From contig MGRM01000004.1 in assembly GCA_001798185.1 (NCBI GenBank), forward strand, positions 1-56,263: a DNA stretch of 56,263 nucleotides, written 5' to 3'. This DNA comes from Deltaproteobacteria bacterium RIFCSPHIGHO2_02_FULL_44_16 (GTDB lineage: Bacteria > UBA10199 > 2-02-FULL-44-16). Position 1 is the stretch's first letter. Each line of letters begins with the position of its first letter. Below, in pieces: positions 4,833 through 14,078 of the stretch. A program made the position numbers and the translations under genes. The notes below the pieces were generated by a model. That model was not told the DNA's origin and searched no databases. It was given only the letters and a program-made list of their open reading frames with translations.

Positions 4833-4837
4833 GAGAT

Positions 4838-5289
4838 ACGTAAGGTCTGTAAGCCGAGTTCTGTCCTCCCCCATTGATTGAGTGGGGGATGAATAGTCAT
4901 TTCTCTAGGATTGCTGTTACCAGCAACCTCAAGCAGCGAACCCGTCCTCTCATCCCCCAAAGATTCAGTGGGGGAATCTGCCGGATCAACATATTGAGGA
5001 CTATTTGCCTTGCTCCCTGCGGGGTTTACCATGCCATCCTCGTCACCGACGATGCGGTAAGCTCTTACCTCACCTTTTCACCCTTGCCCTCCAAGATTTG
5101 TGGAAGGTGGTCTGTTTTCTGTGGCACTCTCCGTCACTGCTATCTCTTGGAAAGGACGCGTCCTTATGCGGGACATTCCTTTCCACAAGCAGCGCCTGGG
5201 GGTTACCCAGCGCAGCATCCTTTGGAGCTCGGACTTTCCTCAGAGCTTGACGCGATAGCATCTCACTCCGCGACTATTCGACCTTACGT
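4838..5289 (-). ncRNA. rnpB: RNase P RNA
   Basis: This catalytic RNA of RNase P matures tRNA 5' ends. The minus strand holds the hallmark 5' segment GAGGAAAGTCCGAGCTCC and the 3' segment ACAGAACTCGGCTTAC. The two ends pair perfectly as helix P1: ACGTAAGGTC (5280-5289 on the plus strand as its complement) with GACCTTACGT (4838-4847). A length of about 450 nt is normal for bacterial RNase P RNA of the ancestral type. It follows the RNase HI gene and ends at a clear terminator. Exact ends are inferred from P1. Confidence 0.93.
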
Positions 5290-13601: not shown

Positions 13602-13678
13602 TGGTGGGCCCTGCAGGACTTGAACCTGCGACCAATCGATTATGAGTCGACTGCTCTGACCAGCTGAGCTAAGGGCCC
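13602..13678 (-). tRNA. tRNA-Ile2 (anticodon CAU, lysidine type)
   Basis: This is a 77-nt cloverleaf with CCA encoded: acceptor GGGCCCT/AGGGCCC, D-stem GCTC/GAGC, anticodon loop CTCATAA, T-loop GGTTCAAGTCC. The anticodon is CAT. The anticodon arm and body (CGACTCATAATCG, TTAGCTCAG) match the minor isoleucine tRNA read after lysidine modification better than elongator tRNA-Met. The 5' half overlaps the end of the GIY-YIG gene, whose TAA stop is formed by the anticodon loop. Confidence 0.88.
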
Positions 13679-13927
13679 CGAAGGCTGCTTCATCCATAAA
13701 AAAGCAGCATCACGTTTCTTCAATGATTTTACGTAGCACTCAACCTGCAACGCATTTTGCTTGGATTCGCACATGACCGTTAATGTTATCTGCCAAGGTC
13801 GCCACTTTTTCGTTGATGGGACCTGTCCTTCATTATGGCGCCGTAATCTTTGTTCGAGATTCGCTGTATGACCAATATATCGGCGACCTGATGTCTCGCT
13901 TGAAAGAATATATACGTAGTGTTTCAT
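13640..13927 (-). CDS. GIY-YIG nuclease overlapping a tRNA gene
   Basis: This is a compact 95-residue GIY-YIG endonuclease domain: HYVYILSS...GRRYIGHT (the GIY and YIG elements), then NLEQRLRRHN with the catalytic Arg, and the conserved Glu in QVECYVKSLK. The last 13 residues (PLAQLVRAVDS and neighbours) are simply the tRNA 5' half read in frame, and the stop is in the anticodon loop. Upstream lies a partial copy of the same tRNA, so the gene is flanked by tRNA repeats like an inserted element. The ribosome site GAGGAG lies in that tRNA remnant. Confidence 0.85.
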   Translation of the reverse strand: MKHYVYILSSETSGRRYIGHTANLEQRLRRHNEGQVPSTKKWRPWQITLTVMCESKQNALQVECYVKSLKKRDAAFLWMKQPSGPLAQLVRAVDS

Positions 13928-13929
13928 TT

Positions 13930-14078
13930 GTCGACTGCTCCTCAATTGCTCTGACCAGTCCCGATTCGGCATGATTTTTGAGGAGCAAAAATCATTCGCC
14001 GAATCGAGGATCCTCGACGCCACAAATAATTTTCACAATGTGAAAATTATGCGGACGTCGGGACTGAGCTAAGGGCCC
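13930..14078 (-). pseudogene. Broken copy of the tRNA-Ile2 5' half
   Basis: On the minus strand the first 33 nt of the tRNA recur in three blocks: GGGCCCTTAGCTCAG (14064-14078), CTGGTCAGAGC (13948-13958) and AGCAGTCGAC (13930-13939). Between the first two blocks a 105-bp palindromic element is inserted, and between the second and third there are 8 extra nt. Homology stops exactly after the C preceding the universally conserved T of the anticodon loop. The 3' half is missing, so this copy cannot make a tRNA. Confidence 0.82.
13959..14063. repeat. 105-bp palindromic insertion inside the tRNA remnant
   Basis: The insertion is delimited by tRNA sequence on both sides and begins TCCCGA and ends TCGGGA. 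Inside are three hairpins in a row: GATTCGGC-ATGATTTTTG with its complement, the small palindrome GAGGATCCTC, and ATAATTTTCACA with its complement. It sits at the centre of AGCT in the D-loop. No open reading frame. It looks like a miniature palindromic mobile element. Confidence 0.75.

Follow-up and report, generated by a model that had tools for sequence, protein, structure and literature searches.

Double-hairpin insertions in tRNA genes of a deltaproteobacterial lineage and a linked GIY-YIG nuclease as their candidate mobiliser

In the genome of Deltaproteobacteria bacterium RIFCSPHIGHO2_02_FULL_44_16, an intact tRNA-Ile2 gene is accompanied by a broken copy of its 5′ half, and a small GIY-YIG nuclease gene lies between the two. 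How does a tRNA gene come to be split and preserved at the same place, and which part of the inserted DNA is responsible? The locus is part of a stretch of 56,263 nucleotides (contig MGRM01000004.1), and we will use the term “window” for this whole stretch. The features of the locus are given below in the coordinates of the window.

13602–13678, minus strand: complete tRNA-Ile2 (CAT), the copy that survives; nt 1–39 code for the C-terminus of the GIY-YIG protein, GPLAQLVRAVDS and stop (12 codons plus the stop codon)
13640–13927, minus strand: GIY-YIG nuclease ORF of 95 codons; single catalytic domain, no DNA-binding domain
13930–13936, minus strand: third piece of the broken tRNA copy, AGTCGAC, tRNA nt 27–33; homology ends after anticodon-loop base C32
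13937–13947, minus strand: 11-nt insert AATTGAGGAGC in the broken copy, source of a Shine-Dalgarno-like GAGGAG
13948–13958, minus strand: second piece of the broken tRNA copy, CTGGTCAGAGC, tRNA nt 16–26
13959–14063, minus strand: 105-nt double hairpin (TCCCGA..TCGAGGA, TCCTCGA..TCGGGA) in the D-loop of the broken copy, site GCTCAG^CTGG
14064–14078, minus strand: first piece of the broken tRNA copy, GGGCCCTTAGCTCAG, tRNA nt 1–15; homology starts at tRNA nt 1

Read along the minus strand, tRNA nt 1–15 are followed by the 105-nt insert, nt 16–26, the 11-nt insert, nt 27–33, AA, and the ATG of the nuclease ORF. The broken copy (13930–14078) contains 33 tRNA nucleotides, every one identical to its counterpart in the intact copy, which is of the Ile2 type by its anticodon CAT and tRNA body and is labelled Met by ARAGORN. 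The GAGGAG motif is placed 10 nt before the ATG, and the ORF runs into the intact tRNA, where the stop codon is found in the anticodon loop. The original prediction for this DNA had recognised the duplicated 5′ half, the end of homology after position 32, the ribosome site derived from the broken copy, and the stop codon derived from the intact one, and these points are borne out. It had also placed 283 bp between the copies, which are 251 nt apart, and had overlooked the 105-nt double-hairpin insert (z = −6.4 for the region), which is the main feature of the locus. The nuclease gene sits downstream of the hairpin arms, not between them. Its product matches Pfam GIY-YIG (E = 2e-17) and has the conserved positions Y6, Y17, G19, R27, H31, and E63. 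No integrase gene is present in the 251 nt between the copies, which contain the GIY-YIG gene alone. A group I intron in the tRNA was rejected, since no Rfam intron match is present in the window and the tRNA exists intact; a chance repeat was rejected because the same layout is seen at dozens of independent loci.

The double hairpin occurs three times in the 1.98-Mb genome, each time in a tRNA gene (Ile2, Ala, and Val) with a duplicated tRNA. In tRNA-Ala(CGC), nt 1–15 are followed by the hairpin pair in the opposite orientation, nt 16–26, and then an intact tRNA-Ala; no GIY gene separates this copy from the remnant. In tRNA-Val(CAC), the element is inserted in the anticodon and flanked by both tRNA halves, also with no GIY gene, and fold prediction places a complete tRNA-Val at the tip of the second hairpin. 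A remnant with a rescue copy therefore needs no adjacent nuclease gene. Four copies of the double hairpin were aligned, one of them without its nested tRNA. The alignment has 43 base pairs, of which 19 are changed on both sides, and 97.6% of cells are paired. Neither shuffling (500 times) nor sliding the register gave anything close to the real alignment. This covariation indicates that the two adjacent hairpins are kept by structure rather than by sequence.

A covariance model (R1) built from the four copies was searched over 46 genomes of the class and identified about 30 loci in 11 of them. Within 3 nt, 26 of the 32 matches abut tRNA sequence (22 of 28 when the four model-building copies are removed), and 28 of 32 (24 of 28) are located at most 300 nt from a tRNA gene; two of the 32 matches (L275 and L281) are one locus. 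Of random positions drawn from the same tRNA-bearing loci, 8% adjoin tRNA sequence. The commonest D-loop insertion site is GCTCAG^, observed in Ile2, Ala, His, Val, Pro, and Met/Ile types, while anticodon-loop insertions have been observed in Val, Ser, Arg, Ala, and Gly. Relative to the tRNA, the hairpins are found pointing either way. For Val, Ile2/Met, Pro, Ala, and Gly, the element that splits the tRNA also holds a complete copy of it, at or within a hairpin tip. The stricter idea that the rescue tRNA always stands exactly on the hairpin stem was rejected, since this is clear in only some loci. A GIY gene lies beside the double hairpin at about 4 of 30 loci, and most have none. In the tRNA-Pro gene of genome G001, a D-loop insertion carries a GIY-YIG gene between its two hairpins; we read this one example, at a contig end and judged by eye, as the autonomous form of the element.

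Relatives of the nuclease were gathered by protein sequence only, and their DNA context was then analysed in the 46 class genomes (the whole phylum as sampled) and 385 genomes of many phyla. The subfamily of the window protein was set apart at about 75 bits, and GIY genes below 70 bits were used for comparison. Among 74 subfamily loci that were not used in the profile, 38 are within 150 nt of a tRNA gene on the same strand, none on the opposite strand, and 36 have no intact tRNA within 150 nt; among the other GIY-YIG genes of these genomes, the count near a tRNA is 1 of 57 (Fisher 6e-11). The tRNA is downstream of the nuclease gene in 22 of the 38 loci and upstream in 16. A piece of the same tRNA is found across the nuclease gene in 30 of the 38, scoring above all 200 shuffles. 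The remnant is the 5′ part of the tRNA when the intact tRNA is downstream and the 3′ part in the mirror-image loci, so the rebuilding of a 5′ half, which the original prediction had described, is one of two modes. About 16 tRNA isotypes have been hit.

Inserts of at least 12 nt, mostly hairpins, are present in 29 of 42 aligned remnants, and the D-loop is their most frequent position (15/34). These hairpins are often doublets (for example, TCCGCC..GGCGGA CCAGCC..GGCTGG), their sequences are unrelated between loci of different phyla, and in L223 one hairpin is nested in the loop of another. The breaks fall mostly in loops. In most loci, the duplicated stretch starts or finishes at a tRNA end; in L158 and L163, 12 nt or more of the upstream flank is duplicated as well. 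In dozens of loci, the two tRNA copies are separated by about 250–300 bp that always contain GIY-YIG or hairpins, and the pattern is repeated in independent assemblies, single-contig genomes included. Named relatives with this arrangement are Omnitrophota, Nomurabacteria, Bacteroidetes, and Chloroflexi MAGs, and in an Uhrbacteria MAG the GIY-YIG gene is flanked by tRNA pieces with hairpins. The Pfam domain PF01541 is found in 18/18 aligned members, with Y, Y, G, R, H, and E conserved. The ORF stops inside the tRNA in 18 of 37 downstream-tRNA loci, mostly at tRNA nt 10–11, 23–25, or 39, an observation that supports the original prediction. One group of tRNA-Asn loci spans Omnitrophota, Bacteroidetes, and the lineage of the window. 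On the protein tree, the target isotype changes 33 times, compared with 35 or more in shuffles, and the site fidelity is therefore weak.

The insertions are not restricted to tRNA genes. Two members of one clade (93% SH-aLRT) are located in RNase P RNA (L048, genome G007) and in 23S rRNA (L169, genome G141). At L048:1471-1776 (oriented, minus strand), the GIY-YIG ORF occupies the loop of a hairpin with 24 perfectly matched base pairs within the RNase P RNA, and further inside there is another hairpin whose ends (GAGCACTCAAC..) are the same. At L169:1530-1742 (oriented, minus strand; one main contig), the ORF is in the loop of a 24-bp stem near the 5′ end of the 23S rRNA, and the insertion looks like an intervening sequence carrying a nuclease gene. 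Together with the tRNA-Pro element of G001, these make three loci with a GIY gene between hairpin arms. The RNA gene is duplicated neither at the RNase P site nor at the 23S rRNA site. Thus, insertions that can be borne as an extra stem-loop occur without a rescue copy, whereas tRNAs have one. Structured RNA genes are known to tolerate stem-loop inserts, some of them with an ORF in the loop, as in Rickettsia palindromic elements and the intervening sequences of 23S rRNA; to our knowledge, neither includes a GIY-YIG ORF in the loop or tRNA-directed members. Just 3′ of tmRNA, one (L190) and two (L181) related GIY-YIG genes have been found. L181 and L190 also contain long repeats of CCTTCGC-type palindromes. 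The RNase P RNA of the window itself (4834–5289) exceeds the Rfam consensus length and has extra hairpins, among which no copy of the window double-hairpin family was seen.

Comparison of relatives separates the hairpins from the gene. In the orthologous tRNA-Ala of G131 and G271, two species of one genus, the remnant, the hairpins, and the intact tRNA are common to both and the GIY gene is present only in G131; the nuclease alone may have been lost or gained. In relatives, a 5′ fragment and an intact tRNA with no nuclease gene are found at about 20 more tRNA genes. The fragment has accordingly been rejected as a mere by-product of the GIY gene, given G131/G271 and the nuclease-free loci; the coupling of fragment and nuclease that the original prediction assumed fails at tRNA-Ala and tRNA-Val of the same genome, in these tRNA genes of relatives, and at tRNA-Ala of G271. 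Its coupling of the nuclease to tRNA duplication fails at the RNase P and 23S rRNA sites. In G003, of the same family as the window genome, tRNA-Ile2 is uninterrupted but stands in a different, non-syntenic gene context, and neither the hairpin family nor the GIY subfamily was found in this genome. Among the genomes compared, no clean pair of an empty and a filled state of one site was found; G021 was rejected as the empty site for the tRNA-Asn locus of G010, its tRNA side being rearranged. Within the order, the hairpin family is present in 7/7 genomes with the GIY subfamily and absent in 2/2 without it (p = 0.03 in a small sample of 9 genomes). At the class level, G017 and G031 have hairpins and no subfamily match at E ≤ 1e-20. 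Given these two genomes and the many hairpin loci with no GIY gene beside them, the mobilising enzyme may work in trans, or a different one may be responsible.

The predicted fold of the window GIY-YIG protein is a single domain (pLDDT 85). The closest solved folds are those of UPF0213 and SLX1, with I-TevI far below. The protein consists of 83 aa and a tail encoded by the tRNA, and its predicted model shows no sequence-specific DNA-binding region besides the catalytic domain. Such a bare catalytic domain, most similar to UPF0213 and SLX1, makes homing through sequence-specific cleavage doubtful.

Based on these observations, we propose that the window locus is probably one of a family of mobile double-hairpin elements which insert into the loops of structured RNAs, chiefly the D-, anticodon-, and T-loops of tRNAs, and are retained where a complete tRNA adjoins the element or tops its hairpin, with the linked GIY-YIG nuclease mobilising them. 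The comparative sequence data show repeated independent insertions of hairpins in tRNA loops, with 5′ or 3′ tRNA halves displaced beside an intact copy, as well as insertions in RNase P RNA and 23S rRNA. They likewise show conservation of the double hairpin by compensatory change and a same-strand tie of the GIY-YIG subfamily to tRNA genes across phyla. The locus is better described as a double-hairpin element sometimes accompanied by a GIY-YIG gene. The mobiliser would most probably be the small, bare, SLX1/UPF0213-like nuclease, acting by structure-specific cuts, and the hairpin elements without a GIY gene would be non-autonomous copies.

A possible mechanism can be put forward more tentatively. 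The GIY-YIG protein would do the cutting, and in the elementary reaction a stem-loop cut at its base would be joined into the opened loop of another stem-loop. Such joining would explain the breaks in loops, the duplicates that start or end at tRNA ends, and the whole tRNAs at hairpin tips. The second tRNA copy may be made by repair or replication at the break; break repair that copies a neighbouring tRNA would be an alternative. In its general form, which we offer as a speculative possibility, this “loop-in-loop” transposition would employ a small structure-specific GIY-YIG nuclease to cut stem-loops at the base and loops at the tip and to join one into the other. With no classical recombinase involved, tRNA, RNase P, and rRNA genes across bacterial phyla would thereby receive hairpins, and entire tRNA genes, in their loops.

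The mobile hairpins might also target tRNA loops with another host or phage enzyme moving them and the GIY-YIG gene as only a hitch-hiker or later settler in the remnants. We consider this unlikely. It would account for the majority of hairpin loci being without the gene, for the tRNA-Ala pair in which G131 and G271 differ in the gene only, and for the hairpins of G017 and G031. On the other hand, the subfamily is tied to hairpin-bearing remnants in many phyla with unrelated hairpin sequences, the gene is placed between the hairpin arms in three loci, and its presence tracks the hairpins within the order.

The original prediction had proposed a minimal homing element, in which the GIY-YIG nuclease cuts the tRNA anticodon loop and recombinational repair inserts the gene together with a replacement 5′ half. 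A part of this description stands: a tiny GIY-YIG element does lie beside a broken and a restored tRNA, and the subfamily recurs at many tRNAs. The gene is also flanked by direct repeats of the tRNA 5′ sequence, and the partial clustering of isotypes on the tree (33 changes, the lowest shuffle giving 35) and the tRNA-Asn group across Omnitrophota, Bacteroidetes, and the lineage of the window speak for homing. Nevertheless, we judge homing improbable, as remnants and duplications exist without the gene, the mirror-image loci displace the other half, the protein lacks a DNA-binding domain besides its catalytic core, the supposed cut site is still present in the restored downstream tRNA, and the RNase P and 23S sites show no duplication.

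The arrangement could instead be a standing unit that acts at the RNA level and is not mobile, for example, a tRNA-like structure controlling the processing or expression of the nuclease. The stops within the mature tRNA (18/37 loci), the compensatory changes in the hairpins, and the strand, which is always that of the tRNA, agree with such a unit. It is nonetheless very improbable in view of the hairpins lying in either orientation to the tRNA, the nuclease-free copies, the RNase P and 23S insertions, and the many isotypes with changing sites. Decayed ends of tyrosine-integrase islands, for which a regenerated tRNA and a displaced fragment are the hallmark (PMC4383910; PMC9897764), or assembly artefacts around repeats can scarcely be considered, as the recurrent spacing of about 250–300 bp always filled by GIY-YIG or hairpins fits neither, loop hairpins are foreign to the integrase picture, independent assemblies and single-contig genomes repeat the pattern, and an integrase island at the window was rejected for want of an integrase.

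The elements favoured here, mobile double hairpins with a mobilising nuclease, can be compared with known systems. Their nearest kind is the mobile double-hairpin element, here with a linked GIY-YIG nuclease and with structured-RNA loops as targets. The nearest precedents are the mitochondrial double-hairpin elements of Allomyces (Paquin et al. 2000, cited in PMC7218506) and the yeast GC clusters (PMC4478555), for which intron endonucleases have been proposed to help movement. Both are small, dispersed, located in RNA genes (and also in spacers), and without a recombinase gene of their own, as are the present elements with 3 copies in the window genome and about 30 loci in the class. Unlike the mitochondrial elements, the present ones are bacterial, concentrated in tRNA loops, accompanied by a complete tRNA copy, and sometimes linked to GIY-YIG. 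In cryptophyte mitochondria, tRNA genes are found at palindrome endpoints (PMC5910586), as in L005 and L265 here; however, the accessible portion of that report mentions neither a split host tRNA around the palindrome nor a nuclease.

In the tyrosine-integrase islands (Islander, PMC4383910; PMC9897764), the split target has a regenerated copy on one side and a displaced 5′ or 3′ fragment on the other, and a regenerated target with a displaced fragment is the feature in common. The present loci differ in having no integrase, an insert of 100–300 bp, hairpins in tRNA loops, at some loci a whole rescue tRNA inside the element, and RNase P and 23S as further targets. The GIY-YIG catalytic core and the anticodon-loop target are shared with homing endonucleases of the I-TevI type and with group I introns in tRNA anticodon loops, but here there is no intron, no DNA-binding domain, and a fold to which I-TevI is far less close than UPF0213/SLX1. 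The UPF0213/YhbQ-like and SLX1 nucleases, of which SLX1 cuts branched DNA, resemble the window protein in sequence and fold; they differ as host repair-type or uncharacterised proteins, and GIY genes outside the subfamily (<70 bits) are near a tRNA in only 1 of 57 cases. No bacterial precedent for hairpin elements or GIY-YIG genes in tRNA loops was found in a literature search that covered few subscription journals and no preprints. Mobile hairpins that enter the loops of genes for structured RNAs, with an intact copy persisting, would form what is apparently an undescribed class.

The route by which palindromic and double-hairpin elements move, through DNA or RNA and possibly with the help of intron endonucleases, has been left open in the studies consulted (PMC4478555 among them). 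With a bacterial family of such elements tied physically to one small nuclease, this question would become testable in laboratory strains. Such a family would also account for many of the partial tRNA genes reported by annotation programs, would show how single-copy essential tRNA genes can be invaded and survive, and would provide a recurring case of a mature tRNA that encodes the end of a protein.

Several additional arrangements have been observed. At L254:1501-1841 (G008:C24), a GIY-YIG gene outside the subfamily (59 bits) has the exact arrangement of the window, with tRNA-His nt 1–15, a double hairpin, and TTGGTTAGAG followed by the ATG. In the genus of G131 and G271 (L232, L234–L250), a hairpin together with a dispersed repeat (..AGAGCAATCGAAAATCG..GATTGCGGTCAA..TCGATTTTC) stands immediately after many tRNA genes, with more than 20 matches, each one seen being 3′ of a tRNA. 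In a Nomurabacteria MAG (L222), the acceptor stem of the upstream remnant differs from that of the intact downstream tRNA-Ile; this remnant may have moved in with the element or may have decayed. Also, in a viral contig (L039, IMGVR_UViG_3300026551_000083), pieces of a tRNA 3′ half flank the GIY-YIG gene on either side.
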